From contig NZ_VIKU02000002.1 of the NCBI RefSeq assembly GCF_009371985.2, forward strand, positions 496,001-560,000: a DNA stretch of 64,000 nucleotides. The letters run 5' to 3'. The notes under the pieces were generated by a model. The model searched no databases. It was given only the letters and a program-made list of their open reading frames with translations, and was not told the DNA's origin. The DNA comes from Pelagihabitans pacificus. Its GTDB lineage: Bacteria; Bacteroidota; Bacteroidia; Flavobacteriales; Flavobacteriaceae. The position numbers and the translations under genes were made by a program. How positions within the stretch are numbered: position 1 is the stretch's first letter; each line of letters begins with the position of its first letter. Shown piece after piece: positions 21,632 through 60,599 of this stretch.

Positions 21632-21734
21632 CGTTTGTTTGTTTTATCACTTTCAAAAATTGCCCGTTTTTGTCAAGAGGCACACCTTCCATGGGTGGAT
21701 ATTCAAAACTATAGGTCATACGCTATATTAACTA

Positions 21735-21746
21735 TGACGAATGTCA
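21735..21746 (-). promoter_or_regulatory. CRP/FNR-like site of the composite promoter for the 54-aa membrane protein
   Basis: TGACGAATGTCA, 23 bp from the perfect -7 octamer TAGTTTTG (21711-21704, minus strand). Confidence 0.8.
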
Positions 21747-21823
21747 GCCCCGCTGTACGTGGGTGGCTTTGTTGATTATATAAAATTTCATTAGCTCCAA
21801 AGTTAGGAAGCCCTTCTGCCACC

Positions 21824-21835
21824 TGACCAATATCA
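21824..21835 (+). promoter_or_regulatory. CRP/FNR-like site for the patatin-like/cbpA/cbpM operon
   Basis: TGACCAATATCA, 23 bp upstream of the perfect -7 octamer TAGATTTG (21859-21866). Predicted +1 near 21870, 63-nt leader to the ATG at 21933. Confidence 0.85.
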
Positions 21836-21932
21836 TTTCGAAATCGTTACGACAAACCTAGATTTGACAGAAGTATAATTCAGATTCCAGAGGTTCCTCG
21901 TATACCACGTCTATCAATAAAATACGCTTGTA

Positions 21933-22724: not shown

Positions 22725-22756
22725 TCCAGCTTCGCATCTAAACTAGCGATACTACA

Positions 22757-23650: not shown

Positions 23651-23659
23651 GCAAAACAT

Positions 23660-24897: not shown

Positions 24898-24902
24898 ACG
24901 AT

Positions 24903-25172
24903 TTAGCCCCCTATTCGCCCCATAGCGCAGCTTACATACGATTTAGCCATTCTTCCCAGGCCATTTTTTTCATTTGCCAAAGGATAGCCCAGCTTAGCAA
25001 GTACATCTTTTACCGCATGAAAGTCTTCTTTCCTTTGATAGCCAAAGGAAACCGTACTGGAATCTGTATCGACCGAGACGTTTTCTACCTGTTCCAAAGA
25101 ATTCAATTTGCCTAAAATGGTGGCTGCACAACCTCCACATTTCAGATTCTGTATTTCAATGGTTGTATGCAT
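24903..25172 (-). CDS. Heavy-metal-associated (HMA) domain protein
   Basis: From Met at 25172 the product is 89 residues with an HMA ferredoxin-like fold: strand TIEIQNLKCGGCAATI with CGGC at residues 12-15, then VENVSVDTDSSTVSF. It would bind Cu(I) or a similar soft metal; no copper ATPase is nearby. A longer frame reaches 25235, but the -7 octamer of the regulated promoter (25199-25192, predicted +1 near 25188) lies downstream of that start, so 25172 is preferred. The C-terminus is an atypical Gly/Met-containing tail. Confidence 0.85.
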   Translation of the reverse strand: MHTTIEIQNLKCGGCAATILGKLNSLEQVENVSVDTDSSTVSFGYQRKEDFHAVKDVLAKLGYPLANEKNGLGRMAKSYVSCAMGRIGG

Positions 25173-25222
25173 ATTGATTTTTTTTGAAGTATAAAGGTAG
25201 GTATCGGATACGATTCGAAAAA

Positions 25223-25234
25223 TGACATCTATCA
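25223..25234 (-). promoter_or_regulatory. CRP/FNR-like site for the HMA/L,D-transpeptidase operon
   Basis: TGACATCTATCA, 23 bp from -7 octamer TACCTTTA (25199-25192, one mismatch to TAnnTTTG). Predicted leader about 16 nt. Confidence 0.75.
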
Positions 25235-25240
25235 TAGTGT

Positions 25241-25996
25241 TTAAGGCCTAGCCTCGCCGAGCCACCAGTGAGTTTTTATGGGTTTCTTTACGAGTCCGAA
25301 TTTTTTAACGGCATGTTCTTTCAGATGTTCGACCATGTCATCGACCGAATCGGTTAAAAAAAGTAACTTCATATCCTCCTCGTCGATGCTTTCGTGTTCC
25401 GCCATGATTTGAATATGCTCGTACAGCTCTTTATGGTATTTTTTTCCAAAGAGTACGACCGGGAAATGAAGAATCATTTTGGTCTGTATCAAGGTCAATG
25501 CCTCGAACAACTCATCCAGCGTGCCGATACCGCCGGGCATTACAACAAACGCGTAAGAATACTTCAAAAGCAAAAACTTGCGAACGAAAAAGTATGGAAT
25601 ATCGATCCATTTGTGCAAATAGGGATTGGCCTCCTGTTCCTGCGGTAAGATGATATTACATCCTATGGAATATCCGTTGTTCACATACGCCCCTTTGTTG
25701 GCCGCCTCCATGATGCCGGGACCACCTCCGGTCATCACCGAAAAACCAAGCTCCGACAATGCTTTGCCGACTTCCTCGGCCAGTTTGTAATAGGGATTGG
25801 AGGCATCAAATCGCGCAGAGCCAAAAACCGTCACGCAGGGACCCACAAAATGCAGTTTCCGAAAGGCCCGGATAAAATTATACTGCACCTTAAAAGTGAA
25901 CCATAATTCCCTAAATCGGTTTCGAGGCCCCTTCAAAAAAGCACGTTCGGAGCGCGGATGCAATCCGTTGTTATTTCGCTGAATGTTGTTCTTCAT
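25241..25996 (-). CDS. LOG family protein (TIGR00730-like nucleotide phosphoribohydrolase)
   Basis: A 251-residue Rossmann-fold protein with the LOG hallmarks GGGPGIMEAANKGA and PGGIGTLDELFE. Homologues (LOG, PpnN, YgdH) cleave nucleoside 5'-monophosphates to base plus ribose 5-phosphate; in E. coli PpnN this is controlled by (p)ppGpp. The protein is longer at the N-terminus than the minimal family (about 190 residues), with a basic helical extension. It is divergent from mlaE and each gene has its own regulator site. Substrate specificity cannot be assigned. Confidence 0.85.
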   Translation of the reverse strand: MKNNIQRNNNGLHPRSERAFLKGPRNRFRELWFTFKVQYNFIRAFRKLHFVGPCVTVFGSARFDASNPYYKLAEEVGKALSELGFSVMTGGGPGIMEAANKGAYVNNGYSIGCNIILPQEQEANPYLHKWIDIPYFFVRKFLLLKYSYAFVVMPGGIGTLDELFEALTLIQTKMILHFPVVLFGKKYHKELYEHIQIMAEHESIDEEDMKLLFLTDSVDDMVEHLKEHAVKKFGLVKKPIKTHWWLGEARP

Positions 25997-26100
25997 AGGG
26001 TACGGTTATTCAAAATAGATGTTCAACCGAAAACAGGTTTTGAATCTGCTTACAAACTCGGTTTACCGCTAAAATTAGTTAGTTGGCCTAAGGCCAAAAA

Positions 26101-26112
26101 TGACCATGGTCA
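26101..26112 (-). promoter_or_regulatory. CRP/FNR-like site for the LOG-family gene
   Basis: TGACCATGGTCA, a perfect palindrome, 23 bp from -7 octamer TAATTTTA (26077-26070, one mismatch). Predicted leader about 70 nt. Its centre is 24 bp from the next site. Confidence 0.75.
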
Positions 26113-26124: not shown

Positions 26125-26136
26125 TGATATTGGTCA
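26125..26136 (+). promoter_or_regulatory. CRP/FNR-like site for the mlaEFD operon
   Basis: TGATATTGGTCA, 23 bp upstream of the perfect -7 octamer TATATTTG (26160-26167). The predicted +1 (about 26171) coincides with the first ATG of mlaE. Confidence 0.82.
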
Positions 26137-26170
26137 TTTCAAAGCCTAAGAGGTCGCACTATATTTGAGT

Positions 26171-32973: not shown

Positions 32974-33423
32974 TTAAGTTTCCATCACACTGGTAAGTTC
33001 CTCACTATCGATAATGTATTCGGTGATATTAAACACCTCCTTTCGATTGGTCCTGAATAGCTTAACGAAATTGGCTATTTCTTCTTCCAAATGCTCATGT
33101 TCCGTTTTAATAACTCCCGCATCCGACCGGTTCGAGTCCTCGACCAAATAACCCAACTGTATCATATGCTTATGGAGTTTTTCCAGCAAATCCTTGCTTT
33201 TCACCTTCAACTCGAACAAGTTCGATTTTGTTTTTCCAACAAGATCCAAATTTTCCTTCTTCGTAATCCATATCAAATATTTATCGATTAGATGGTGTAG
33301 AAATCGCAGATCATCCTTGTAGAATTCCAGGTCGGATTTCCAATGTTGGGTAATAACATATAGCTCGTCCCATGGACCGTCTTTCAAGAAATCTTCTTCA
33401 GTGTTTTTACTTTTTGTAGCCAT
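32974..33423 (-). CDS. Hypothetical helical protein, HWKS family copy 1
   Basis: A 149-residue, highly charged and probably all-helical cytoplasmic protein. The N-terminal segment HWKSDLEFYKDDLRFLHHLI matches HWKSELAFWKDELRSFNNRL of the protein at 48270-48656, so the two are paralogues. No known domain recognised; coiled-coil interaction is likely. It is the first gene of the six-gene run and has a regulated promoter with a leader of about 23 nt. Confidence 0.75.
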   Translation of the reverse strand: MATKSKNTEEDFLKDGPWDELYVITQHWKSDLEFYKDDLRFLHHLIDKYLIWITKKENLDLVGKTKSNLFELKVKSKDLLEKLHKHMIQLGYLVEDSNRSDAGVIKTEHEHLEEEIANFVKLFRTNRKEVFNITEYIIDSEELTSVMET

Positions 33424-33480
33424 GATTAAGGGGTTTTACGTTACAACCTTAAATGTAGGGGAGCCTACACCCAATTAAAA

Positions 33481-33492
33481 TGACTAAAGTCA
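33481..33492 (-). promoter_or_regulatory. CRP/FNR-like site for the six-gene operon 33423-29588
   Basis: TGACTAAAGTCA, 23 bp from -7 octamer TACATTTA (33457-33450, one mismatch). One of two sites in the 158-bp gap between divergent genes. Confidence 0.8.
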
Positions 33493-33511: not shown

Positions 33512-33523
33512 TGATTCATATCA
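33512..33523 (+). promoter_or_regulatory. CRP/FNR-like site for the universal stress protein gene
   Basis: TGATTCATATCA, 23 bp from octamer TAGTTTCA (33547-33554, two mismatches). Predicted leader about 24 nt. Confidence 0.75.
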
Positions 33524-33581
33524 TTTTAAATTCGGATTTACCAAAGTAGTTTCACAAAAGCAATTCTAAACATCTTGGATA

Positions 33582-36497: not shown

Positions 36498-36509
36498 TGA
36501 CCTACATCA
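36498..36509 (+). promoter_or_regulatory. CRP/FNR-like site for the bactofilin-like gene
   Basis: TGACCTACATCA, 23 bp upstream of TTGTTTTG (36533-36540, one mismatch). Predicted leader about 26 nt. Confidence 0.78.
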
Positions 36510-36569
36510 TTGCCTAACTTATTGATTTTTAATTGTTTTGGACGTTACTAACAATAAATACATCTAATC

Positions 36570-37751
36570 ATGAAAACGTTGATACTTTTCCTTGGATTGT
36601 TGTTTCCCCTGGCTGCCGTTGCCCAATACGAAAGTTCAAAACAAAAGACCATCTCCGAAAAACAGTACGATGACCTTTATCGCGCCGGAGACACGGTTAA
36701 CATCGATGCTACGGTAGCAGGGGACGTGGTAATCGCCGGTGGTATTCTTACCGTGAGGGATACGGTAGAACAGGACCTCATAATGGCGGGTGGCGAGATT
36801 TTGGTCAAAGGGTATGTAGGCGACGATATACGAACCGCTGGCGGAACACTCACCATCGATTCCGAAATCGGTGATGATGTCATCATTGCCGGGGGGAAAG
36901 TATTACTTACCGAAAATGCCGTCGTTCACGGAAACCTCATCAATTTTTCGGGCGATATCGTGATGAACGGTGCGGTAAAGGGATCGGTCAGGTCGTATTC
37001 GGGTGAATTGGAAATGAACGGCACTGTTGGCAAAGGAGCACAGCTCTACGGGGAAGAAATAACGATCAACGGCGAAATATTTGGGGAATCCAAAATCGCG
37101 GCCGAGCAAATCCGCATCGGGAACGAGGCAGTATTCCGTGATAATGTCACATATTGGTCAGCCGATTCGGACGTGGACTTCAAAAACTCCTTAAGAGGCG
37201 CAACGGCCTCCTTTTCGGAGGAGCTCAAGGGTGAACGGGATGAATTCAACGGTAAAGGCTTCGGAATCGCCGCTATCGGATTTTGGATTTTCTATTTGCT
37301 CTCGGCACTTTTGGTGCTTCTACTCCTCAACTGGGCGTTCGGGGACTTTTTCTATTCGGCCGTCGAATACCTTGAGAACGTGCCCCTAAAAAGCTTCGGT
37401 TACGGTCTGGTGTACCTATTTGGTGTTCCCGTGCTTATACTAATCGCCTTTATAATCGTTATTGGTATTCCGTTAGGCTTGTTTTTGGCAGGGTTCTATT
37501 TGTTCAGCTTATTGTTCGGTCATCTAGTGACCGCCTTGTTGGCCAGTCATTATCTTAATAAAAAATCAGATGGTTCCTGGAGCTTTTGGACGATTGTATT
37601 ACTGGCGCTGGGATTAGCGGCAACTTTACGTTTAGTAACCTTTATCCCATTTTTAGGTGCCCTGTTATCCATGATATTAATAGCCATTGGTTATGGGTCG
37701 CTCGCCTATACCCTATTGCAAAAAAGAGCGTTGCTAAAACTAGGTACCTAA
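36570..37751 (+). CDS. Exported bactofilin-like polymer-forming protein with membrane C-terminus
   Basis: A 393-residue protein with a signal peptide (residues 1-18, ending AVAQ), a right-handed beta-helix-like region (about 40-200) of bactofilin repeats such as GDVVIAGGILTV, GDDIRTAGGTLTI and GDDVIIAGGKVLL, then about four membrane segments (about 228-390). Bactofilins polymerise and are normally cytoplasmic; here the signal peptide and the C-terminal membrane domain imply a periplasmic beta-helix tethered to the inner membrane. Regulated promoter upstream. Role in envelope scaffolding is inferred. Confidence 0.82.
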   Translation: MKTLILFLGLLFPLAAVAQYESSKQKTISEKQYDDLYRAGDTVNIDATVAGDVVIAGGILTVRDTVEQDLIMAGGEILVKGYVGDDIRTAGGTLTIDSEIGDDVIIAGGKVLLTENAVVHGNLINFSGDIVMNGAVKGSVRSYSGELEMNGTVGKGAQLYGEEITINGEIFGESKIAAEQIRIGNEAVFRDNVTYWSADSDVDFKNSLRGATASFSEELKGERDEFNGKGFGIAAIGFWIFYLLSALLVLLLLNWAFGDFFYSAVEYLENVPLKSFGYGLVYLFGVPVLILIAFIIVIGIPLGLFLAGFYLFSLLFGHLVTALLASHYLNKKSDGSWSFWTIVLLALGLAATLRLVTFIPFLGALLSMILIAIGYGSLAYTLLQKRALLKLGT

Positions 37752-38148: not shown

Positions 38149-38658
38149 TTACATAAAATTACCCTGTTCATCCAACTTCACCCGAACGACCTTATCACCA
38201 TTCTCCAATTTCAACTTATATTTTTTGGATACACCTTTTTTATCGTGATAGTTTACCAAATAAACATCCTTGGTAATAGTCCACCCTGGGAATCGCTCCA
38301 ATACCGATTTTTTTACCGCATCAGGTAAATTAATATTCTCGAAACGCTCGGCAGTACGAACGAGCTTGCCATCTCTATCATAGGCCGCTAGAATCTTTCC
38401 TTGTGGGATGTAAAAGTTAATACGATAGAGATCCCAATCATCTTGGTAATAGTCGGAATCTTTCACATCAAAAGACGCTACTTTACGTTCCAGCATTTGA
38501 ACAGGCAAGGAAGCGACCTCCCCCGTATTTACGTCATTCAAATACTTGTAATTTGTTGCATAAACGGTAACCTCTGAAAGCTCTTCCGTTTTAACGATTT
38601 GCGAGAATGCCTGGGTGGTTAGTCCAATCGCCAGTAAACCTAACAATACTTTTTTCAT
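38149..38658 (-). CDS. Secreted PepSY-like protein
   Basis: A 169-residue protein with a signal peptide (residues 1-19, ending AFSQ). The C-terminal part, with LPDAVKKSVLERFPGWTI and YKLKLENGDKVVRVKLDEQG, resembles the PepSY-like (DUF2874) fold of Bacteroidota periplasmic proteins. No catalytic residues. It is monocistronic with a regulated promoter (leader about 55 nt) and its own terminator. Function unknown. Confidence 0.78.
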   Translation of the reverse strand: MKKVLLGLLAIGLTTQAFSQIVKTEELSEVTVYATNYKYLNDVNTGEVASLPVQMLERKVASFDVKDSDYYQDDWDLYRINFYIPQGKILAAYDRDGKLVRTAERFENINLPDAVKKSVLERFPGWTITKDVYLVNYHDKKGVSKKYKLKLENGDKVVRVKLDEQGNFM

Positions 38659-38747
38659 GATTCTTTTATTTAATTAATAATCAAGCGTTTGCATAAACCA
38701 AGTTCGGTTCATATTGCTAATTTATTCTGGTTTTGGCGGTACTACAA

Positions 38748-38759
38748 TGACCTAGGTCA
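38748..38759 (-). promoter_or_regulatory. CRP/FNR-like site for the PepSY-like gene
   Basis: TGACCTAGGTCA, a perfect palindrome, 23 bp from TAAATTAG (38724-38717, one mismatch). Confidence 0.8.
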
Positions 38760-38806: not shown

Positions 38807-38818
38807 TGATCAAAATCA
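38807..38818 (+). promoter_or_regulatory. CRP/FNR-like site for the PNPOx-like gene
   Basis: TGATCAAAATCA, 23 bp upstream of the perfect octamer TAGATTTG (38842-38849). Predicted leader about 52 nt. Confidence 0.82.
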
Positions 38819-38904
38819 TTTGTATTGAAGTCGAAAGCCCTTAGATTTGATAGTAATAGGGTTGCTCAAATATTGAGGCAGTCTTATCCACAATCCCTAA
38901 AACC

Positions 38905-39455: not shown

Positions 39456-39467
39456 TGACCGAAATCA
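39456..39467 (+). promoter_or_regulatory. CRP/FNR-like site for the ppsA operon
   Basis: TGACCGAAATCA, 23 bp upstream of TAGTTTCG (39491-39498, one mismatch). Predicted leader about 25 nt. Confidence 0.8.
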
Positions 39468-39526
39468 TTTGGAATAACCATTGATCGTACTAGTTTCGAT
39501 AGTCGGCAATACCTAATGTAAAGGAC

Positions 39527-43490: not shown

Positions 43491-43502
43491 TGACTTAGGT
43501 CA
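43491..43502 (+). promoter_or_regulatory. CRP/FNR-like site of a promoter for a non-coding transcript
   Basis: TGACTTAGGTCA, 23 bp upstream of TAAATTAG (43526-43533, one mismatch). Predicted +1 near 43537; the next gene starts only at 43892. Confidence 0.78.
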
Positions 43503-43536
43503 TTTTATCTCGTACAAAAGCCTCGTAAATTAGCCC

Positions 43537-47740: not shown

Positions 47741-48136
47741 TCAATCATTGCTCCGGCGTACACCACGATTGCTACGACCTCTATTCGCATTGTGCTCTTC
47801 ATGGTAGCGTCGAATATTGTCATCGTTGTAATTTCGAATGCGCTCATAGCGCGACCTTCTCAAGTCGATATTGCGATACCGTGTCGGCAATACCTTTCTA
47901 CGTACCCAGACCCCGGCATCTAGATAAACGTACGTGCGTGACGACAAGTCGTAGTAAAAACTGAACTCGGGAAAATAGACATAGCGTACCAGTTCGAGTC
48001 TGTTGGGATAAAACCAAGGAGGAGGGGGATCGGCCACCCTGGTGGTAAGCACCACCGGACCACAGCTTGCCAAGAGTAAAAACAGCACATAAACAAAAAA
48101 TAACAATAACGACCGGTAACAAGCTCTATATTCCAT
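47741..48136 (-). CDS. Hypothetical lipoprotein with Arg-rich C-terminus
   Basis: A 131-residue protein with lipobox LLASC (Cys25), an aromatic-rich middle (WFYPNRLELVRYVYFPEF, TYVYLDAGVWVRRKVLP) and a C-terminal Arg/Asn tail. The YVYLDAGVW pattern is found in small Bacteroidota envelope proteins of unknown function. Shares one regulator site with the divergent gene at 48270; predicted leader about 16 nt. Confidence 0.72.
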   Translation of the reverse strand: MEYRACYRSLLLFFVYVLFLLLASCGPVVLTTRVADPPPPWFYPNRLELVRYVYFPEFSFYYDLSSRTYVYLDAGVWVRRKVLPTRYRNIDLRRSRYERIRNYNDDNIRRYHEEHNANRGRSNRGVRRSND

Positions 48137-48186
48137 TTTCGAGGGTTTGATACTACAAAATAAATGGAGCAGGTTTGTTTTCGAAA

Positions 48187-48198
48187 TGACCTACATCA
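48187..48198. promoter_or_regulatory. CRP/FNR-like site serving two divergent promoters
   Basis: TGACCTACATCA lies 23 bp from a perfect octamer TAATTTTG on the plus strand (48222-48229) and also 23 bp from TTATTTTG on the minus strand (48163-48156, one mismatch). One palindromic site may activate both directions. Confidence 0.82.
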
Positions 48199-48269
48199 TT
48201 TTCAAACCGCTCTGTATCAAATAATTTTGAATATCATATTCATACGACATACAAACAAATACACAGGCC

Positions 48270-48656
48270 ATGGAAAAAGAGATCATATACGATTCAAACC
48301 TACATTTTGAACATATTCATTGGAAATCCGAACTCGCTTTTTGGAAAGACGAACTCAGGTCTTTCAATAACAGATTAAGTGAATTGGTAACCCGTTGGAC
48401 CAAACAGGAGGTATTGAAACAACTGGAGCATTTCCAGAACGAGTTCATATTACATGGTGGAATCATCGACGATTTACTGGAAACCATCGAAGAGCACGAA
48501 ACAAGCATTGAGGGCCATAGCAAGATGGGGCGGGAAGCGATGGATATAGCGCTCGTAAAAAAACATATGGAATTCAGGGATCAAATGGAGACGCAGCGCC
48601 AGATTTATGCCGATTTAAAAAAAGAGTTCTTTCAATTTTTGACCAAGTATATGTAG
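48270..48656 (+). CDS. Hypothetical helical protein, HWKS family copy 2
   Basis: A 128-residue charged helical protein, paralogue of the protein at 32974-33423: both carry HWKS(D/E)L-x-F-(W/Y)-K-D-(D/E)-L-R near the N-terminus followed by a long amphipathic helix and W-x-T-K-(K/Q)-E. No known domain recognised. Regulated promoter with perfect octamer; predicted leader about 37 nt. The BON gene 130 bp downstream could be part of the same transcript. Confidence 0.75.
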   Translation: MEKEIIYDSNLHFEHIHWKSELAFWKDELRSFNNRLSELVTRWTKQEVLKQLEHFQNEFILHGGIIDDLLETIEEHETSIEGHSKMGREAMDIALVKKHMEFRDQMETQRQIYADLKKEFFQFLTKYM

Positions 48657-49520: not shown

Positions 49521-49532
49521 TGATATAAATCA
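49521..49532 (+). promoter_or_regulatory. CRP/FNR-like site for the YtxH/holin-like operon
   Basis: TGATATAAATCA, 23 bp upstream of the perfect octamer TACATTTG (49556-49563). Predicted leader about 37 nt. Confidence 0.85.
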
Positions 49533-49603
49533 TTTCAATTCGATCGTCTTTGATTTACATTTGATACAGAGTATTAAAGATTCGTTAACTTAAAATCATC
49601 ATC

Positions 49604-50570: not shown

Positions 50571-51641
50571 CTACCTAAAATCCGCCACACGTTTTAGTTC
50601 TTCCTTGTTCAACAAAACAATCCTCCTACCTTGATCGGTGGTAATAAGACCTTCCTCCTTGAAATCGGATAAGGTTCGTATCGCGGTCTCGGTCGCTGTA
50701 CCTATCATTCCCGCAAAATCTTCCCGGGGAATCCCCACACCTCCGTTCACCTTATCCATGATAATTCCTTTTTGGTACAACTCCAATAAGGCCTTGGCGG
50801 CACGTTGTCGTACGGATGCATAAGCCATATCCACCAAATGCTCCTGAACATCGATCAGGTTATTGGATACCATTCCTATGAACTTTTGGGAGACCAGGTG
50901 ATTGCCGTACAACAACTTGGTGAAATCATCCTTTGGTATGGCGCATACCTCGGCGTCCTCCATGACCGTTGCCGTTTCGATATAGGTTCCTGATTTATTC
51001 AGAAGGGATAACTGCCCCACAAAATCACCGGCTTTATAAATGCCGGTCACGAATTCTTTCCCCGACTCGGTCCCTTTATAGGTTTTGATGGTTCCACTCT
51101 CTATGAAATAGAGGGAATGTGCGCCGTCTCCCTCCCAATAAAGAAATTCCCCTTTTTCGAGCTCCTTTGGACGATATTCTTTCGAAAGCTCCTCCAAATC
51201 CATGTACTGGGATGCTTCTTCCAGAAAAGTATTAAGGCCTTTAATATTTTTGGCGATTTCTTTCTTGAGGAAATTGTTCTTTTGAAGGCGGCAGTCGATC
51301 GCTTCCAAAAGTTCCCTTTCTTCAAAGGGTTTCGTCAGGTAATCATCCGCACCCATATTCATCCCGAGACGCATGTCGGCCCTCGCTGTCTTTGCAGTTA
51401 GGAAAATGAAAGGAACACTGGCTGTAGCACTATTTTTCCCTAGTTGCTCGAGTACCTCGTATCCATCCATTTCAGGCATCATGATATCGCATACCACGAT
51501 GTCAGGTATAAATTGTTTGGCTTTTTCCACTCCTTTTAGGCCATTTTCGGCTGTGGCCACTTGGTAGTTTGCGAGTTGCAAAATCTCCGCCGTGTTTTCA
51601 CGTACGTCTTGGTTATCCTCAATGAGTAGTACTTTTTTCAT
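50571..51641 (-). CDS. Response regulator fused to a CRP/FNR-type DNA-binding domain
   Basis: A 356-residue regulator: receiver domain (1-120; Glu8-Asp9, phosphoacceptor Asp52, Thr82, Lys104), linker helix, cNMP-binding-type beta-roll (about 155-265) and winged-helix HTH (about 275-350). The beta-roll segment GQLSLLNKSGTYIETATV lacks the Arg that holds the cAMP phosphate in CRP, and there are no FNR-type cluster cysteines, so control is probably by phosphorylation. In the recognition helix Glu318 and Arg322 match CRP Glu181/Arg185, while CRP Arg180 is Thr, predicting TGA...TCA rather than TGTGA sites. It overlaps the LOV kinase by 4 bp; the likely regulator of the composite promoters. Confidence 0.9.
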   Translation of the reverse strand: MKKVLLIEDNQDVRENTAEILQLANYQVATAENGLKGVEKAKQFIPDIVVCDIMMPEMDGYEVLEQLGKNSATASVPFIFLTAKTARADMRLGMNMGADDYLTKPFEERELLEAIDCRLQKNNFLKKEIAKNIKGLNTFLEEASQYMDLEELSKEYRPKELEKGEFLYWEGDGAHSLYFIESGTIKTYKGTESGKEFVTGIYKAGDFVGQLSLLNKSGTYIETATVMEDAEVCAIPKDDFTKLLYGNHLVSQKFIGMVSNNLIDVQEHLVDMAYASVRQRAAKALLELYQKGIIMDKVNGGVGIPREDFAGMIGTATETAIRTLSDFKEEGLITTDQGRRIVLLNKEELKRVADFR

Positions 51642-54511
51642 TTTCTTTTCAGGTTTAAGGGTAATTCTACGATAAAGGTGCTTCCCTTACCTTCTTTACT
51701 TTTAAATCGCACAGCGCCACCCATAAGTTCGGTGTATTGTTTAACGATATGCAGTCCAAGGCCGGTACCTTGAATATTGGTGACGTTCCCGGCACGGAAA
51801 AATCGTTGGAACAGGCTCTTTTGTTCCTTTTTAGGAATGCCGATGCCCTGGTCCTTAATCTTGATCAAAAGCTTTTTTCCCTCTGTGGCGATACGACATT
51901 TAATCTTCGTATGCTCCTCGGAATACTTGATAGCGTTCGAGAAAAGATTGTTTAGGACATGGCTGAGCAGTTTTGGGTCTAGATACACCAAAACTTCCGT
52001 ATTGTCCTGTTCTAAAATAAGTTCCTGTCCTTCCTTCAGGTTTACTTCCATCTCATCTATCAATGACTTGACAAAATCGATCAGTTCAAATTGTTGCGCA
52101 TGCATTTGTACCTTGCCTTCTTCCAATTTGCTCAAGGATAGGAAATCGTTCAGGATTACCACCAGATTCCGCACATTCGCCCGAATGCGCATCACGTGTT
52201 TTTTTCTTTTCTCTTCCTGACCCGGTTCGTTTTGTTTTCCGATAAGAATCGCAGAGGATAGGATGGCACTCAGAGGCGTGCGAAATTCGTGGGAAGCCAT
52301 GGAGATAAAGCGCGACTTTAATTCATTGAGTTCCTGTTCTATTTTCAGGGCATTCGACAATTCTTGTTGTACTTTTTTCTGATCGGTAATATTGCTGTAA
52401 ACAAACAAGGCCCAAACAACGTCGGGATCATCCGACCACAAGGGAGTGGAATTCGCCGTATAGCTATTTCCCATGTACTCCAGCTCGAAAGTAAGATGAC
52501 TTCCGTTCAGGGTTTTATTGACATCTTCACGGATTTTCCCGATCTGTTCTTTTGAAAAAATCGGAAGATCATCAATACGTAATCCCTCGAAATCGCCTTT
52601 TCTAAGGTTAAACCGTTTCAGTTCCTGTCCCTCGACATATACCAATTCGAAATCTTGATTGAACACTACGATGACACCTTTGGGAAAGTTTTGGGCAATG
52701 GCCGAAAATAGTGCTTGGCTTCTTCGCGCCCTGCTTTCAGCGGACCTGGTTTCCTGTATCTGATCTTCCAGGCTTAAATTGATTTCCACCAGTTGCTGTA
52801 CCGTGTCCTTAAGTTCTACGGTACGTTCTTTTACCCGCTGTTCCAAGGTTTGGGCGTAGGCCTCCAATTGTTTCCTACTCGTAAACAACTCGGTTCTAAT
52901 ATCATGATGTTCGATTGCCAGGGCACTGAGTTGGGTAAGATCGGCCATGATCTCTTTGTACGCTTCCAATGATGTCTCCGGTGTCTTGCAATAAACGGCG
53001 AAAGTACCCAGCACCTCGTCTTTCACCGATAAAATGGGGAACGCCCAACAAGAGACAAATCCATTGTGTAAGGCGACCTCCTTATTGTTTTTCCAAAGCG
53101 GGTGGGTAGCAATATCGGGCGTAAAAATCTCCTGTTTCGTATGCGCCGCAGCCCCACAACAACCCGCTTCCGGTCCCACGGCCAATCCTTCCATGGCTTT
53201 GACGAACGGTTCCGGGAGGTGGGGCGCTGCCAAATTGCGTAGGATACCTTTATCATCCACTAGTTGAATGGCGGCCCTACAGCCTTTTACGTGTTTTTCG
53301 AGTGCTTCCACCAAGCAATTACCTATCGCATCCAACGGGTGGTCCTGCGCAATCATCTCTAAAATCTTTCGGATATCATCCTTAAGCTGAATCGCCTTTT
53401 TTTTGTCCGTTACGTCGTGCTGTACCCCGATGAAATGGGTTAATCGCTGTTCTTTATCATAAACGGGGGTAAGCGTAAGCTCGTTCCAAAAGAGTGTGCC
53501 GTCTTTACGATAATTGCGTAGGGTCTCTTTACAAAGCGTACCCGTCTTGATGGCTTTGCGAATATTTTCAATCCCGGGCTGATCTCGATCGTCTTTCTGC
53601 AAAAAGCGACAGTTTCTTCCCAAGGCTTCACTACTTCTATACCCCGTCATATGGGTAAAGGCAGGATTGCTATAGATAATCGGAAGATCGGGTTGTTGCG
53701 CATCCGCAATCAAAATACCGTTCCCCGCGGCATCCAAAGCCCTATTCCGAATGTGTAATACGTCTTGTATTGCCTTATTTTGGGTGATATCCCTAACAAG
53801 GGTGAGGAGACGGTGATTGTTTAATCGCACCGTACGGGCTTCATAGACTATCTTTCCCTTTTCACCTTGCATGGTGTATTCCCGAATTTGTACCTCCTTT
53901 TCCTTGATCGCTTTTCGATGTGTTTTGAGTATCTCCCTGGCCATTTCCGGTGGAACCACCTCCTTGATGTTTTTACCAACCAAGTCTTCTTCACTTACTT
54001 GAGAATCTCCCCGGTTGGGCATGTAACAGTCGAGGAAATCCCCTCGGAAATTATGAATGAACATCATATCCGGAATGGCTTCCAAGAGCGCATTGCTCTT
54101 TGCCTCATTGGCCCTTAACTCCTGTTCCACCAGATACTGTTGCGTAGCGTCCTTTACAAAAGCAATCGTCACCGAATGGTCGTTGACCACCGCTGGACTA
54201 AGACTGATTTCTACCGGAAATTGGGAGCCATCCTTTTTTAAACCCCATAGGTTCCGGTTCTTGCCCATGGGCCTGGCCATCGGGTTTTTGATGTATTTTC
54301 TCCGATGTCCGATGTGCTTTTTTCGCAGGTTTTCCTGAATCAGTTGTTCTACCCTGCATGCTGTAAGTTCTCCGTTGTCATAGCCGAACATATGTTCCCC
54401 GGCCGGGTTTATTGTAAGAAGTGACCCATCATCATCGACAACGAGAATTCCTTCTACCGAGGATTCAAAAATGCTCTGAAAAAGCTTCGTATTATCCAGT
54501 TCGTCTATCAT
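51638..54511 (-). CDS. LOV-domain hybrid-sensing histidine kinase (PAS-PAS-LOV-GAF-PAS-HK)
   Basis: A 957-residue soluble kinase without membrane segments. Order: PAS (about 10-125), PAS (140-245), LOV (255-370), GAF (380-535), coiled coil (545-595), PAS (600-712), HisKA (732-800; His741 in SHEFRTPLS) and HATPase (845-955). The LOV domain has GRNCRFLQ with Cys301, then Asn333, Asn343 and Gln364, the same spacing (32, 42, 63) as the flavin-binding Cys450/Asn482/Asn492/Gln513 of oat phototropin LOV2, so blue-light flavin-adduct chemistry is expected. Partner is the REC-CRP protein immediately downstream. Other inputs (redox, gases) may enter through PAS and GAF domains. Confidence 0.92.
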   Translation of the reverse strand: MIDELDNTKLFQSIFESSVEGILVVDDDGSLLTINPAGEHMFGYDNGELTACRVEQLIQENLRKKHIGHRRKYIKNPMARPMGKNRNLWGLKKDGSQFPVEISLSPAVVNDHSVTIAFVKDATQQYLVEQELRANEAKSNALLEAIPDMMFIHNFRGDFLDCYMPNRGDSQVSEEDLVGKNIKEVVPPEMAREILKTHRKAIKEKEVQIREYTMQGEKGKIVYEARTVRLNNHRLLTLVRDITQNKAIQDVLHIRNRALDAAGNGILIADAQQPDLPIIYSNPAFTHMTGYRSSEALGRNCRFLQKDDRDQPGIENIRKAIKTGTLCKETLRNYRKDGTLFWNELTLTPVYDKEQRLTHFIGVQHDVTDKKKAIQLKDDIRKILEMIAQDHPLDAIGNCLVEALEKHVKGCRAAIQLVDDKGILRNLAAPHLPEPFVKAMEGLAVGPEAGCCGAAAHTKQEIFTPDIATHPLWKNNKEVALHNGFVSCWAFPILSVKDEVLGTFAVYCKTPETSLEAYKEIMADLTQLSALAIEHHDIRTELFTSRKQLEAYAQTLEQRVKERTVELKDTVQQLVEINLSLEDQIQETRSAESRARRSQALFSAIAQNFPKGVIVVFNQDFELVYVEGQELKRFNLRKGDFEGLRIDDLPIFSKEQIGKIREDVNKTLNGSHLTFELEYMGNSYTANSTPLWSDDPDVVWALFVYSNITDQKKVQQELSNALKIEQELNELKSRFISMASHEFRTPLSAILSSAILIGKQNEPGQEEKRKKHVMRIRANVRNLVVILNDFLSLSKLEEGKVQMHAQQFELIDFVKSLIDEMEVNLKEGQELILEQDNTEVLVYLDPKLLSHVLNNLFSNAIKYSEEHTKIKCRIATEGKKLLIKIKDQGIGIPKKEQKSLFQRFFRAGNVTNIQGTGLGLHIVKQYTELMGGAVRFKSKEGKGSTFIVELPLNLKRK

Positions 54512-54544: not shown

Positions 54545-55597
54545 TTATACAGCCTGTAAATCAACCATCCGAATTTTAGGGAGTGCATTTGGATGATTTT
54601 CCCGTATGAACGAAATCAGTTGTTCCCTTATATCGCAACGTAGGTTCCAAACGTCGGTCGCATTTTTTGCGCTAAAAGTGGCCCTTAACTGCATCGCACG
54701 GCTATCGCTATCGGTCACCAGTAAGTCTGCCTCCTTTTTGTCCCATAAGCGATGATTCTTAAGCAGTTTGAGGAATTTCTCCCGCAACTCGGCTACCGGA
54801 AACGTATAATCCACATAGAGATATACACTCCCGATAAGCCTGCGGGAAGCAAAGCTCCAGTTCACAAACGATTTGTCGTTAAAGTAGTTAAGTGGTAATA
54901 CCAGCCGACGCCAGTCCCATGTTCGCACGACCACGTAGGTCAACGTGATGTCTTCAACCGTTCCAAACTCTCCCTCGATAACGACTTCATCATCGATTTT
55001 AAGCGTTTGGGTAAAAGCGATTTGAAATCCGGTAATCAGATTGGCAATCGATTTTTGGGCAGCTACCCCAACGATAATGCCCAAAACCCCCGCCGAAGTC
55101 AGAATGGTCTCCCCTAACTGTTTCGCAGTGGGTATATTCCATAAAATGGAGGCCAAGGCTATGGTAGCGATGACGACTTGGGCAATACTCTTCATAAACC
55201 GCAGTTGTGTGAGTACCTTCCGCTCCTTTGCCTGATGAACGCCATCAACGTTGAATGTATGTTTTACCGCTTCCTCCAACGCGCCTAAGGCAGTGATGAA
55301 CAACCATGCCAAATTCACAATGATCAACATCTCCAAGAGTTTGTGCCAAAAAGAGTCCAGTCCTATATAAGGAAGCGTCAAATATGTGAACAGCAGCGGA
55401 AGGAACCAAAAGGTGGGGGCTTTCAAATGCGTTAAAAGCTCCTCTTTTAAAACGGAGGGTTTTTTGCTATTGTAGAGTTTAAAAATGGCAAAAAGAATCC
55501 ACCGTACCGCTAGTCCCAAAAGAATGCTGGCCCCGGGTACCAATAGATAAGCCAACCAAGGCATATCTTCAAACAAATTCGAAATGAACATTTCCAT
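54545..55597 (-). CDS. MscS family mechanosensitive channel
   Basis: A 350-residue channel with about four N-terminal membrane helices and the pore/beta region ILGIIVGVAAQKSIANLI-like (here VLGIIVGVAAQKSIANLITG) followed by the Sm-like domain GEFGTVEDITLTYVVVRTWDWRR and a C-terminal alpha/beta domain. Releases ions on membrane tension. It is the first gene of an operon with the LOV kinase (33 bp downstream) and the REC-CRP regulator, all behind a composite promoter; predicted leader only about 11-17 nt. Confidence 0.9.
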   Translation of the reverse strand: MEMFISNLFEDMPWLAYLLVPGASILLGLAVRWILFAIFKLYNSKKPSVLKEELLTHLKAPTFWFLPLLFTYLTLPYIGLDSFWHKLLEMLIIVNLAWLFITALGALEEAVKHTFNVDGVHQAKERKVLTQLRFMKSIAQVVIATIALASILWNIPTAKQLGETILTSAGVLGIIVGVAAQKSIANLITGFQIAFTQTLKIDDEVVIEGEFGTVEDITLTYVVVRTWDWRRLVLPLNYFNDKSFVNWSFASRRLIGSVYLYVDYTFPVAELREKFLKLLKNHRLWDKKEADLLVTDSDSRAMQLRATFSAKNATDVWNLRCDIREQLISFIRENHPNALPKIRMVDLQAV

Positions 55598-55642
55598 TTC
55601 CGTTCTTTTATCAAATGTATCATTGCTTCTCGGGCTTAAAAA

Positions 55643-55654
55643 TGATTTTGGTCA
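55643..55654 (-). promoter_or_regulatory. CRP/FNR-like site for the mscS/LOV kinase/REC-CRP operon
   Basis: TGATTTTGGTCA, 23 bp from the perfect octamer TACATTTG (55619-55612). Indicates autoregulation if the REC-CRP protein binds these sites. Confidence 0.85.
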
Positions 55655-55680: not shown

Positions 55681-55692
55681 TGACAAGGGTCA
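55681..55692 (+). promoter_or_regulatory. CRP/FNR-like site for the patatin gene
   Basis: TGACAAGGGTCA, 23 bp upstream of TATTTTTA (55716-55723, one mismatch). Predicted +1 near 55727 excludes the ATG at 55726 and supports 55748. Confidence 0.78.
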
Positions 55693-55747
55693 TAGTATCC
55701 CCACTTGTCAGCAGGTATTTTTACCATGGAAACCGAAAAAAAAGAGC

Positions 55748-56551: not shown

Positions 56552-56563
56552 TGACCTAGGTCA
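56552..56563 (+). promoter_or_regulatory. CRP/FNR-like site for the YceI-like gene
   Basis: TGACCTAGGTCA, a perfect palindrome, 23 bp upstream of the perfect octamer TACTTTTG (56587-56594). Predicted leader about 17 nt. Confidence 0.88.
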
Positions 56564-56614
56564 TTCATTGGCTTCAAGGTAGCAGCTACTTTTGGGGTAT
56601 TAATTGCCTTACCA

Positions 56615-57262: not shown

Positions 57263-57273
57263 TCATCACCTAT

Positions 57274-59931
57274 TCAAGATACCCTTAAGCGTATTAAACG
57301 TTTTACCAGTTGTGCCAATACCAAAGACCCGGATGCAAACATGATTACCGTACCCATCTGTGCAAGGGAGAGCGGGCCCAGAGAAAGGTAGGTGGCGACG
57401 ACAGGAACCAAATAGGCCCCAAAGGTAATCGCCAACGACAAAAGAATCGCTCCCCATATCCAATGATTGGCCGTTACCTCATTTTTGAAAAAGGATTCGC
57501 TTCGCTTGGGCATATTAAAAACATTGACCAATTGTGCCAATACCAAGGTATAAAAGGCCATGTTATTGATGGTTTTCGATGGTAGGTTCAAAACCGAATC
57601 CGCATAGACCACCACACCCAACACGGCTATACCGATACAGAGACCGTAAACTAGTATGGCCACCCAATCACTTGATGTAATAATCGGATCTTTCGGGTTC
57701 TTGGGGGGTTGCTCCATAACATCTTCCTCTCCTTTTCCAAGTCCAAGTGCCAAGGCCGGAAAGACATCGGTTACCAAGTTCAAAAATAGGATTTGTAAGG
57801 GCAGCAATGGGGACGGAAGATTTAAAAGGGCCGCAGTACCGACAGAAAGAATTTCCGCCAGATTACAGGACAATAGATAGACCACAAATTGACGGATGTT
57901 CTGAAATACCACCCTCCCTTGACGAATCGCCAGTTCTATGGCCGTAAACCGATCGTTCTTAAGGATAACATCAGCCACTTCACGAGCCGCTTCCGTACCC
58001 CGTACCCCCATGGCGATTCCGATGTCTGCCTTCTTCAAGGCGGGCACATCGTTGATACCATCACCGATCATGCCCACGATATGGTTATTTTTTTGGTAAA
58101 AACGTACCAAATCCAGTTTCTGTTCAGGAGTGACCCGAGCAAAAATCGAAGCATTTCGTAGTTGTTCGTTATGTACCTCGGATGCATTCATATAGGTAAC
58201 GAGGTCCTTGCCCCGATATACGGCTTGCCGCGTACCGTCATCTTCCCTTTCCAATAAACCGATATCCCTGGCAATTTTTTCCGAAGTTCCAGGGTGATCA
58301 CCGGTAACCATGACCACCTTGATCCCTGCCCTTTTGTAGGTGTCGATGGTTGCCTTTACATCTTCCCTAGCTGGATCCAAGAAACCCATAATCCCCAAAA
58401 AAACAAGTTGTTCCAAAAGGGTCTGCTTTACGGGCTCCTGTTTTACTTCCTTATATGCAAAAGCCAAGGTGCGCAACCCCTGTTCCGCCAAAATATCGAC
58501 CTTTTTACCCCAAATTTGCCTATTCACGAAAGGCTTCGTTCCATCGGCACACATAATACGGTCGCAATGGGCGGTTAGGTTCTCAAAAGCCCCTTTTGCA
58601 TATACATGAAAGTGGTCTTGATGCCGATGTGCGGTGGCCATCAGCTTCCGCTCTTCGCTAAAGGGCAGCTCTAATTTTTCTGGATTTTTTTCCCTAACGG
58701 TAATGGGGTCATATCCCATATGCGTTGCAAAATCAATTAGGGCCCGTTCAATCGAATCACCCTGTTTTTCAATCGATTCGACATCGATATTATTACAAAG
58801 AATAGCGGTCATCATCATTTTGTGAAAAACAGGATGTTGCTTTATGGAAGTTAAAAAATCATTTTTCCGATGATAGATATCGGCCAATGATTGCTCCCCA
58901 AATTCCAGGGAATGAACTTTCATTTGGTCTTCGGTCAAGGTTCCCGTTTTGTCGGTACAGATAATATCCGTAGCGCCCAAGGTCTGAACGGCTTCCAGTT
59001 TTTTAATGATTACCTGTTTTTTTGAGAGTCGCATCATGCCCTGTGCCAGGGCGATCGTAGCGACGATCGGGAGTCCTTCGGGTATCGCCGCGACTGCCAA
59101 TGCCACCGCCGTCTCGATCATCAGCAGCAACTCTTCCCCGCGTATGTAGCCCATGATTATAATGATCAACGCGAAAAACAACGTTAACCATATCAACCAC
59201 TTGCTCAACTCCTTCAGTTTTTTCTCCAAAGGGGTTCGTTCCTTCAATGCATCGACACCCATCTGCTGTATATGACCTAATTGGGTATGTCTTCCAGTAG
59301 CCGTCACGATAGCCTTCCCCGACCCCGTAGTGACCGTAGTACCGCGAAAAAGCATATTGGATCTATCCGTTAAGGGGATATCGGCATGTAATATATTCGT
59401 TGTTTTGGAGACTTGGGCACTTTCACCTGTAAGGGCCGATTCTTTCACGGAAAGATTTTCGACCTCGATCAAACGTGCATCCGCCGCTACCACATCCCCA
59501 CGTTCTACCAGTAAAAGATCTCCGGGAACGACTTCCGAAGCCTTGATATGCACTTTTTGACCCGACCGGAGCACATAAGTCATCGCTTGACCCATTTTCC
59601 GGAGTTCCTCCAAGGAACGCACCGTCTGCAGTTCCATGAAAAAGCCAATGGCGACCGAAATCAAAATAACGATAAGGATGGCCATACCCTCAAGAAAATC
59701 ATTGAATAGGAATGCCAAAACGGCCGCTACGACCAAAATATAGATGATAGGGTCGGCTAAATGATCCGCCAGTATGCGCCATCGTTTCTTTGGACCGCTT
59801 TCTGGTATTTGGTTGGGGCCATGCGCTGAAAGACGCCCGAGGGCCTCTTCTTCTTCGAGCCCCCTAACCCGATCTCCCATCAGATGGGTGATTACATCCT
59901 CTACCGAAACAGCAAACGGATTTTGAACCAT
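57274..59931 (-). CDS. Calcium-type (P2A/P2B) cation-transporting P-type ATPase
   Basis: About 885 residues: actuator domain (LTGESAQV), M4 motif AAIPEGLP, phosphorylation site CTDKTGTLTEDQ, hinge MVTGDHPGTSEKIA and MIGDGINDVPALKKADIGIAMG, and M6 NLVTDVFPALALG. PEGL in M4 and N-x-x-T-D in M6 match calcium pumps of the SERCA group, so Ca2+ (or Mn2+) export is likely. Start at 59931 (MVQNPFAVS), the usual start of this group; the frame runs on to 60000. About 125 bp after hsp20, probably the same transcript. Confidence 0.92.
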   Translation of the reverse strand: MVQNPFAVSVEDVITHLMGDRVRGLEEEEALGRLSAHGPNQIPESGPKKRWRILADHLADPIIYILVVAAVLAFLFNDFLEGMAILIVILISVAIGFFMELQTVRSLEELRKMGQAMTYVLRSGQKVHIKASEVVPGDLLLVERGDVVAADARLIEVENLSVKESALTGESAQVSKTTNILHADIPLTDRSNMLFRGTTVTTGSGKAIVTATGRHTQLGHIQQMGVDALKERTPLEKKLKELSKWLIWLTLFFALIIIIMGYIRGEELLLMIETAVALAVAAIPEGLPIVATIALAQGMMRLSKKQVIIKKLEAVQTLGATDIICTDKTGTLTEDQMKVHSLEFGEQSLADIYHRKNDFLTSIKQHPVFHKMMMTAILCNNIDVESIEKQGDSIERALIDFATHMGYDPITVREKNPEKLELPFSEERKLMATAHRHQDHFHVYAKGAFENLTAHCDRIMCADGTKPFVNRQIWGKKVDILAEQGLRTLAFAYKEVKQEPVKQTLLEQLVFLGIMGFLDPAREDVKATIDTYKRAGIKVVMVTGDHPGTSEKIARDIGLLEREDDGTRQAVYRGKDLVTYMNASEVHNEQLRNASIFARVTPEQKLDLVRFYQKNNHIVGMIGDGINDVPALKKADIGIAMGVRGTEAAREVADVILKNDRFTAIELAIRQGRVVFQNIRQFVVYLLSCNLAEILSVGTAALLNLPSPLLPLQILFLNLVTDVFPALALGLGKGEEDVMEQPPKNPKDPIITSSDWVAILVYGLCIGIAVLGVVVYADSVLNLPSKTINNMAFYTLVLAQLVNVFNMPKRSESFFKNEVTANHWIWGAILLSLAITFGAYLVPVVATYLSLGPLSLAQMGTVIMFASGSLVLAQLVKRLIRLRVS

Positions 59932-60055
59932 TTGGAAATATTTTAAAAAATGCTTGACAGGAAAACGAAGCCCCTGCACCCAACCTGAATACATGGACAA
60001 AATTCAGGTTTTGGTACAAGGGCGTTTCAAAAGAAAAGTAAGCTATCTCACATTG

Positions 60056-60520
60056 CTATGAAATCTCCACTTTTTTAGGTGGTATCTTTTTAGCCTCTTC
60101 TTTTTTAAGAAGATTAAAGCTAAGGATACCATCTTTGTATGCAGCCTTAATTTCTTCCTGTTTTACACTTTCAGGTAATTGCAGGGATCTTTCGAAGGAG
60201 TTATAGCTGAACTCCCTACGGGTATAATTCTCCTCTTTTTCCTCTTTCTCCATTTTCTTTTCGGCGGAAATGTTCAAGCAACCATCTTCAATAGTCACTT
60301 CAAAGTCTTTCTTGGCAAATCCAGGGGCTGCCAATTCAATCTCAAAATGATCATCTGTTTCTTTGATGTTCAGTGCGGGTTCCCCTGTTTTTCCTGTCCA
60401 AAAACGATCGGGCAGCATGTCCCTGACCCATTTTCTATTGTCAAAAAAATCGTCCATGTCAAAAAAATCTTGGGTGATCAGGTTTCCAAAGGGTCTCCTT
60501 TTAAATTTTACTAGTGACAT
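60056..60520 (-). CDS. Hsp20/alpha-crystallin small heat-shock protein
   Basis: A 154-residue small heat-shock protein: N-terminal arm (about 1-45), alpha-crystallin domain (about 46-140; ALNIKETDDHFEIELAAPGF, LNISAEKKMEKEE, SFERSLQLPESV, AAYKDGILSFNLLKKE) and a C-terminal extension KKIPPKKVEIS with an IxP-like anchor. Holds unfolded proteins without ATP. First gene before the P-ATPase; regulated promoter with a leader of about 33 nt. Confidence 0.95.
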   Translation of the reverse strand: MSLVKFKRRPFGNLITQDFFDMDDFFDNRKWVRDMLPDRFWTGKTGEPALNIKETDDHFEIELAAPGFAKKDFEVTIEDGCLNISAEKKMEKEEKEENYTRREFSYNSFERSLQLPESVKQEEIKAAYKDGILSFNLLKKEEAKKIPPKKVEIS

Positions 60521-60587
60521 AATATTGCATTTTTAGGTTAAACATTTTTTCTACGTCGAAAGTAGCACCCTAAAGTCGGATGGGAAA

Positions 60588-60599
60588 TGATCTAGGTCA
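60588..60599 (-). promoter_or_regulatory. CRP/FNR-like site for the hsp20/P-ATPase operon
   Basis: TGATCTAGGTCA, 23 bp from TACTTTCG (60564-60557, one mismatch). Confidence 0.8.

Follow-up and report, generated by a model that had tools for sequence, protein, structure and literature searches.

A composite promoter with a fixed 23-bp spacing and its putative low-oxygen regulon in Pelagihabitans pacificus and related Bacteroidia

Introduction

Class II promoters of the CRP/FNR type in Proteobacteria carry a TGA-N6-TCA palindrome centred at -41.5, and their sigma box begins at -12. The DosR regulon of mycobacteria, which is served by a sensor kinase, assembles genes for low-oxygen survival, many of which encode universal stress proteins (Usp). 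Clustered low-oxygen survival genes, including six universal stress proteins along with metabolism and transport, are also described for the lxa locus of Burkholderia cenocepacia in the excerpt of PMC9104464, and the excerpt of PMC1274295 gives TTGAC-N4-GTCAA as the sites of HcpR, a protein of the CRP/FNR family. Here we describe a composite promoter element—the 12-mer TGAY-N4-RTCA, separated by 23 bp from the Bacteroidota octamer TAnnTTTG—in a 64,000-nucleotide stretch of the flavobacterium Pelagihabitans pacificus. This stretch, hereafter called the window, comprises positions 496001-560000 of contig NZ_VIKU02000002.1 (here C12) in a genome of 4.56 Mb, and coordinates without a contig name are those of the window.

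We propose, with a probability of roughly 0.8, that the composite element functions as a class II sigma-A promoter at which CRP/FNR-type activators would share sites, and that it governs genes for life at low oxygen.

Composite promoters in the window

A preliminary description of the window, made from its letters alone, had estimated that about four of the 12-mers would occur by chance. Consistently, 100 shuffles gave an expectation of 3.94 exact 12-mers (largest count 9), while the window contains 20. Moreover, 18 composites with at most one mismatch over the 43-bp pattern were found, as compared to 0.14 expected (largest 2). A chance surplus of 12-mers is thereby ruled out, by the shuffle counts for the 12-mers and for the composites. 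The composites, with the genes that they face, are as follows.

21704..21746, minus strand: composite with perfect octamer, upstream of open reading frame (ORF) 21456-21719
21824..21866, plus strand: composite with perfect octamer, upstream of the patatin-like ORF 21933
25192..25234, minus strand: composite with one octamer mismatch, facing the ORF listed as 24903-25235 (HMA domain)
26070..26112, minus strand: composite with one mismatch, upstream of the Lysine_decarbox-family ORF 25241-25996
26125..26167, plus strand: composite with perfect octamer, upstream of MlaE, ABC, and MlaD genes
33450..33492, minus strand: composite with one mismatch, upstream of ORF 32974-33423
33512..33554, plus strand: weak composite with two octamer mismatches, upstream of universal stress protein 33582
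36498..36540, plus strand: composite with one mismatch, upstream of ORF 36570-37751
38717..38759, minus strand: composite with one mismatch, upstream of ORF 38149-38658
38807..38849, plus strand: composite with perfect octamer, upstream of the Pyridox_ox_2 ORF 38905
39456..39498, plus strand: composite with one mismatch, upstream of the phosphoenolpyruvate (PEP)-synthase-like ORF 39527
43491..43533, plus strand: composite with one mismatch, about 360 bp upstream of the Pta and AckA genes
48156..48198, minus strand: bidirectional site, leftward octamer with one mismatch, upstream of ORF 47741-48136
48187..48229, plus strand: bidirectional site, rightward octamer perfect, upstream of ORF 48270-48656
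49521..49563, plus strand: composite with perfect octamer, upstream of the YtxH-like ORF 49604
55612..55654, minus strand: composite with perfect octamer, upstream of the MscS-like gene, then the kinase and REC-CRP genes
55681..55723, plus strand: composite with one mismatch, upstream of the patatin-like ORF 55748
56552..56594, plus strand: composite with perfect octamer, upstream of the YceI-like ORF 56615
60557..60599, minus strand: composite with one mismatch, upstream of the Hsp20 gene 60056-60520

Eighteen of the 19 coordinates that had been listed for TGAY-N4-RTCA are exact. The remaining one, 36450, reads TGAGGAAAGTCA, which has one mismatch, and its octamer, TAACTTGC, has two; the sites at 33512 and 36450 are the two weak composites of the window. 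Our recount reproduced the tally of eight perfect octamers, ten with one mismatch, and two with two mismatches, and the site at 48187 indeed carries octamers both ways, with genes on either side. Two exact 12-mers, at 5070 and 46632, stand without an octamer. The statement that no sites occur in the gaps left of 21,450 thus holds for the composite but not for the 12-mer, as that at 5070 lies just upstream of ORF 5086. For ORF 24903-25235, the listed first ATG lies beyond the site 25192..25234, and a later ATG provides a start 19 nt from the octamer.

Spacing and distribution in the genome

How is the element distributed outside the window? The genome holds 30 perfect composites, and the reversed control holds none. 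With the gap left free between 8 and 38 bp, 30 of the 42 perfect pairs fall at 23 bp—the genome-wide enrichment that the preliminary description had named as a check—and the reversed control of this variable-gap search gave one match. At 23 bp lie 20 of the 24 pairs with TGAC sites and 10 of the 18 with TGAT sites. In addition, when positions 4 and 9 of the 12-mer were freed, Y and R were present in 92 of the 93 matches to TGA-N6-TCA, 23 bp, and octamer in the window, the C12 stretches, and the 28 nearer loci described below.

The sites are strongly clustered. A segment of 143 kb (C12:517.7-660.7 kb), about 3% of the genome, contains 19 of the 30 perfect sites and both genes for the REC-CRP proteins described below. 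Thirteen 20-kb stretches elsewhere (260 kb) contain no perfect site and two sites with one mismatch. About 670 kb of the genome was read as 35 stretches, with an overlap of 8 kb with the window; twenty of them had been picked for containing sites, bordering on them, or lying between them. The 68 own sites with at most one octamer mismatch come from these twenty stretches and the window, rather than from the whole genome.

Conservation among relatives

Conservation in related species, a further check that had been named, was found across genomes, in named loci, and at orthologous promoters. Across 99 genomes from the genus, family, and order of the window genome, itself included, we counted 578 perfect matches as compared to 10 in the reversed control, with at least one match in 80 of the 99. 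A phylum-wide draw of 148 genomes gave a match in 34 of the 37 genomes of the same class or closer, and in 26 of the 111 outside the class; within the class, 232 matches were obtained against 6 in the control.

The named Bacteroidota loci surround relatives of the REC-CRP gene and are the best 80 of 508 candidate stretches—28 nearer and 52 farther—from Arenibacter, Maribacter, Pricia, Aquimarina, Formosa, and others, out to metagenome-assembled genomes (MAGs) of Cytophagales and Chitinophagales. At gaps of 5-44 bp, they contain 84 perfect pairs at 23 bp, while the other 39 gaps together account for 19. Of these 84 pairs, 73 lie in the nearer loci and 11 in the farther ones. When one mismatch is allowed, the nearer loci hold 194 sites in 533 kb, and a site occurs in 22 of the 52 farther loci.

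Orthologous promoters were compared for 19 window genes in the 80 loci (tblastn, E 1e-20, match beginning in the first 30 residues, with 150 bp or more upstream, two patatin genes counted once). Fifteen genes gave 100 orthologous matches, some of which may be paralogs and which come from mutually related loci, and the composite, with at most one octamer mismatch, is kept in 74 of these 100. It is kept in 19 of 20 matches for Hsp20, 15 of 16 for YtxH, 12 of 14 for ORF 48270, 11 of 13 for patatin, 4 of 4 for Pyridox, and 3 of 3 each for MscS and ORF 38149. For Usp 33582, the match in locus L068 has the same octamer as the window, TAGTTTCA. In this tblastn search of the 80 loci, three window genes had no orthologous match. 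The promoter rule is established by the counts together with this conservation.

Site anatomy and promoter position

We next compiled 260 sites, 68 from the own genome and 192 from the 28 nearer loci, in a search that fixed the 12-mer and allowed one octamer mismatch; duplicates and stretch-end sites were dropped. Their consensus is A-A-(A/C)-TGAY-N4-RTCA-T-T-T-(C/T)-N19-TAnnTTTG. The base left of TGAY is A in 58%, C in 38%, G in 1%, and T in 2%, in line with the earlier remark that it is A or C and not the T of the FNR box, and the base right of RTCA is T in 95% and G in 5%. The octamer mismatches fall mostly in the last two letters, and never in the T of positions 5 and 6.

The crowding of 19 of the 30 perfect 43-bp elements in 143 kb would suit a mobile or duplicated repeat whose copies carry a promoter by coincidence. 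Both the inner spacer (19 bases) and the outer flanks have a nearly random sequence, though, and the composite is therefore not a copied repeat. Moreover, orthologous promoters keep the two boxes and their distance, while most other bases differ. These features rule the repeat out, and its probability is practically nil.

Octamers with TTAG and a left C make up 41 of the 260 sites. A separate TTAG promoter subclass was considered as their source; they are partly explained by two orthologous promoters, those of Hsp20 and ORF 38149, in which the combination occurs in 10 of 14 among the Hsp20 matches listed (hits in L060-L081) and in 2 of 3 ORF 38149 matches. The TTAG octamer of the Hsp20 promoters (60557-60599 and relatives) seems to be a stably maintained variant and not a product of decay. 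In four distant Bacteroidota MAG loci (L091, L094, L096, and L097), a site lies just downstream of the REC-CRP gene, with the 23-bp gap kept and the octamer CATTTTTG.

Where would the palindrome lie relative to the transcription start? In the excerpt of PMC9723704, a flavobacterial start map places TAnnTTTG at -12 to -5. Given the 23-bp gap, the 12-mer would therefore span -47 to -36; centred at -41.5, it would coincide with the class II CRP/FNR position. Sixty-five of the 68 own sites have a suitable start codon within 300 nt of the octamer (the ORFs being set by a simple rule rather than by annotation), and the first such codon follows at a median distance of 26 nt, which corresponds to a leader of about 22 nt. 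The same excerpt reports a median leader of 24 nt in a flavobacterium.

The preliminary description had the site replace the -33 element. Centred at -41.5, the palindrome would overlie the -33 box, where the 260 sites show a TTT run at the place of its TTTG, so that it could instead be a repressor operator over the -33 region. The TTT run may be simply the palindrome's own arm. At a spacer of 18-21, TTTG occurs before 2 of 73 perfect composites and 16 of 479 other octamers; it is equally rare before both, and this comparison thus decides little about the -33 box. In contrast, the fixed distance of 23 bp is demanded by class II activation and not by repression. We consider a repressor operator very improbable.

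Genes behind the sites

The claim of a large regulon was borne out well beyond the window, and the genes behind the sites belong to low-oxygen energy metabolism and survival. Among sites of the own genome with at most one mismatch, nine Usp genes were recognized by Pfam and one by BLAST; an eleventh, 33582 in the window, stands behind a two-mismatch site. The metabolic genes include those for PEP synthase- and pyruvate phosphate dikinase (PPDK)-like enzymes, Pta-AckA, pyruvate:ferredoxin oxidoreductases, and a ferredoxin. Further sites precede genes for a HemN-like enzyme, cbb3 components, Hsp20, an S30AE hibernation factor, and a PfkB kinase, as well as patatins, an MlaE-type transporter, and two YgaP-like membrane proteins. 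Genes that fit less well also occur—a GH3 glycosidase, a LytTR response regulator, and FadL-type and OmpA-type proteins—and many genes have no Pfam match.

A second group lies in the C1 region of a gene for an FNR-like protein. There, a FixS-like ORF with a fused CcoN-CcoO gene behind it has a one-mismatch composite about 20 nt upstream, and another such composite precedes a Usp gene. The adjoining gene for a copper-type P-ATPase (FixI-like) is also behind a one-mismatch composite. None of the composites of this FNR-like/FixI/FixS/cbb3 region is among the 30 perfect sites.

Candidate regulators

The own genome has eight HTH_Crp_2 matches, six of them above the cut-off, and the recognition helix G-(T/I)-A-T-E-x-x-I-R occurs in three own proteins: a REC-CRP protein encoded in the window, a second REC-CRP, and the FNR-like protein. 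These proteins and the genes that adjoin the first of them are as follows.

50571..51641, minus strand: REC-CRP with receiver, cNMP-binding, and Crp helix-turn-helix domains, candidate activator
51638..54511, minus strand: histidine kinase with PAS and GAF domains; its gene overlaps the REC-CRP gene, and it is the likely partner
54545..55597, minus strand: MscS-like channel gene, which probably heads an MscS-kinase-REC-CRP operon
C12:631.6 kb: second REC-CRP, 84 kb from the window REC-CRP
C1:54931-55629 (L137:14931-15629): FNR-like protein

The helix is highly conserved. The alignments comprised 31 FNR-like rows, two of them for the own protein, and 79 REC-CRP rows; two of the 80 REC-CRP loci contributed none. 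Every row has the E and the R of the helix, and the I is present in 31 of 31 and 76 of 79, respectively. Immediately before the helix Glu stands a Thr in all 31 FNR-like rows and in 64 of the 79 REC-CRP rows. The excerpt of PMC1274295 links this residue (R180 of CRP) to one of the outer bases of the site, and a Thr here would fit an outer base different from both the G of CRP sites and the T of FNR sites.

The two kinds of protein differ in their sensory parts. In the REC-CRPs, the receiver residues Asp52 and Lys104 are present in 79 of 79 rows, as expected of a response regulator with an adjoining kinase gene. A Cys at the place of residue 111 occurs in only 16 of 79 rows, and no C-x2-C was found in the nine proteins examined. 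In the FNR-like proteins, Cys 9, 12, 58, and 111 are kept in 30, 31, 31, and 31 of the 31 rows (the own C1 protein, L047-L056, and L152-L171). These four possibly constitute a rearranged set of iron-sulfur ligands, and the protein may sense oxygen through such a cluster.

The window REC-CRP, which a test proposed in the preliminary description implies to be the regulator, stands as one candidate but not as the sole one, as three own proteins share the recognition helix. Its gene lies in the site-rich stretch, and the MscS, kinase, and REC-CRP genes (55597-50571) look like one operon behind a perfect composite, which suggests possible autoregulation. This arrangement, together with the dense sites in the flanks of the 28 nearer relatives, would be expected if the window REC-CRP were the dedicated regulator. 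Against such a role, the element also stands before the cbb3 and FixI-like genes next to the FNR-like gene, and 35 of the 99 genomes have an FNR-like protein without a REC-CRP and still average 5.8 sites; REC-CRP is therefore not the only candidate. We judge a dedicated REC-CRP to be decidedly improbable.

Could the FNR-like protein alone use the sites, while the REC-CRPs bind something else? The own FNR-like gene lies beside the FixI-like and cbb3 genes, all behind one-mismatch composites. Between the FNR-like and FixI-like genes, a palindrome (L137:14834-14907) is flanked at 23 bp by an octamer in either direction, both with one mismatch; the right octamer is 23 nt upstream of the FNR-like gene, and the palindrome may drive both genes. 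In the ten nearest FNR-like copies, the own one included, composites point in both directions in eight, and a same-strand composite lies upstream of the FNR-like gene in eight, at 22-26 nt from the start in seven of these. Moreover, FNR-like proteins are more widespread, being present in 52 of the 99 genomes as compared to 25 for REC-CRP. In contrast, the sites are densest in the stretch with both REC-CRP genes, and the helices match. Together with the genome comparison below, these observations make sole use by the FNR-like protein unlikely.

Regulators and sites across genomes

When presence was cut at E 1e-45, the mean number of perfect sites per genome was 1.4 in the 39 genomes with neither regulator, 5.8 in the 35 with the FNR-like protein only, 7.5 in the 8 with REC-CRP only, and 15.2 in the 17 with both. 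Among genomes of at least 3 Mb, each class exceeds "neither" (one-sided rank tests, p 0.0015 or lower, kinship uncorrected).

A looser search at E 1e-15 was applied to all eight REC-CRP-only genomes, and rules out that every one of them has a hidden FNR-like protein. REC-CRP is the sole relative found in G035, G048, G049, and G050, which hold 9, 5, 5, and 10 sites, contrary to use by the FNR-like protein alone. G030 (88% complete) has two relatives, both REC-CRPs, and G016, G039, and G044 have another family member too. The clean REC-CRP-only cases are thus four, or five with G030.

We also compared the genes behind the sites in 30 of 37 loci from the REC-CRP-only genomes G016, G035, G039, and G050 (L172-L201) and in 30 of 39 from the FNR-like-only genomes G014, G026, and G027 (L202-L231). 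A downstream ORF was present in 29 of the 30 loci of each set, and was labelled by BLAST against labelled proteins, with 30 of the 58 also scanned with Pfam. Common to the REC-CRP-only and FNR-like-only sets are FixS (3 and 3), HemN-like radical-SAM proteins (3 and 2), and the S30AE hibernation factor (1 and 1). The name HemN is ours, as Pfam found Radical_SAM in all six scanned (one own, five relatives) and HemN_C in one. FixS and HemN-like genes stand behind sites even in G035 and G050. A Usp gene stands behind 6 of the 29 sites of the REC-CRP-only genomes and behind 0 of the 29 of the FNR-like-only genomes, a further point against sole use by the FNR-like protein, while pyruvate formate-lyase (PFL; 2), Pta (2), and FixI (1) occur in the FNR-like-only set alone. 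This hints at a shared core and a Usp arm that goes with REC-CRP, in seven genomes whose phylogeny is uncontrolled.

Proposed mechanism and its meaning

Of the steps beyond the promoter rule, we hold class II activation with the greatest certainty, the identity of the regulators with less, and control by oxygen with the least.

Site binding: A dimeric activator of the CRP/FNR type would bind (A/C)TGAY-N4-RTCAT, centred at -41.5, and thus occupy the place of the -33 box.

Polymerase recruitment: The bound activator would recruit RNA polymerase to the TAnnTTTG octamer 23 bp downstream.

Regulators: The activators would be the CRP/FNR proteins with the helix G-(T/I)-A-T-E-x-x-I-R, three of which are encoded in the own genome. 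The FNR-like protein, the window REC-CRP with its PAS/GAF kinase, and the second REC-CRP are predicted to act on shared or overlapping sites.

Signal and outcome: Direct oxygen sensing, phosphorylation, or both would drive the regulon, leading to the expression of genes for low-oxygen respiration, fermentation, and survival.

Several observations weigh against this proposal. Palindromes without an octamer also often lie near ORF starts (within 130 nt in 38 of 68 directions, as compared to 63 of 68 composites), and nearness to a gene is therefore weak evidence. The composite is kept poorly for Usp (3 of 9), ORF 47741 (2 of 6), Pta (1 of 5), and PEP synthase (1 of 3), and is found in 0 of 4 genes with a single orthologous match each, YceI-like 56615 among them. 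Outside the class, the excess is small, with 39 matches against 5 in the control in 111 genomes. The genomes in which regulator presence was scored are related and not independent. Seven of the 39 "neither" genomes hold at least three sites; the six other than G090 were searched again, and a more distant relative was found in five and none in G056 (82% complete). The other CRP-family paralogs of the own genome (L032-L034) may be further candidates.

Different species appear to work the same switch with different sensor proteins. In its widest form, this view holds that across the class Bacteroidia one code is read interchangeably by FNR-like and REC-CRP proteins, that some lineages swapped oxygen sensing for phosphorylation with the cis sites unchanged, that REC-CRP adds a Usp arm to a cbb3/HemN core, and that the FNR-like protein uses C-x2-C, C58, and C111. 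We offer this extension tentatively, at slightly short of even odds. If it and the promoter reading are correct, an exact, searchable rule for the low-oxygen response would be available in much of the class, and the regulon could be listed from sequence alone. The element would also exemplify the exchange of a sensor while its binding sites stay as they are, and the way in which class II activation operates with this phylum's unusual sigma factor would become open to test.

Comparison with known systems

Among the matches listed in the openly licensed literature, we found no description of the composite element, which is weak evidence of its novelty. The lxa and DosR systems resemble the window regulon in gene content, with a similar clustering, and the likeness is confined to the genes; they belong to other phyla and use other regulator families and promoter architectures. 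With the HcpR sites, as given in the excerpt of PMC1274295, the window site has the TGAC-N4-GTCA core in common, but the outer T-A pair is absent here, and the HcpR regulons centre on hcp.

The regulons of FNR, ANR, and FixK share with the present one the cbb3 oxidase, FixI- and FixS-type proteins, HemN-like enzymes, fermentation enzymes, and Usp, and differ from it in that REC-CRP is the sole relative found in some of our genomes. In FNR, cysteines serve as cluster ligands, the third of which lies, by alignment, elsewhere than Cys 58 of the FNR-like protein. The latter matches the solved FNR proteins 9qlt and 5cvr, and best matches 2gau, a Crp/Fnr-family protein. It keeps the C-x2-C and the later Cys (111), while the third N-terminal Cys of the four-cysteine arrangement is absent, Cys 58 is invariant, and the helix reads E-x-x-I-R instead of E-x-x-S-R. 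In addition, the outer T of TTGAT-N4-ATCAA occurs in 2% of the 260 sites, if these are the sites of the FNR-like protein. The closest architecture is that of the class II promoters of Proteobacteria. The window element has their TGA-N6-TCA core at one fixed distance from the sigma box, a predicted centre at -41.5, and a sigma box from -12, and it differs in using the Bacteroidota TAnnTTTG and an outer A/C, where FNR sites have T and CRP sites have G.

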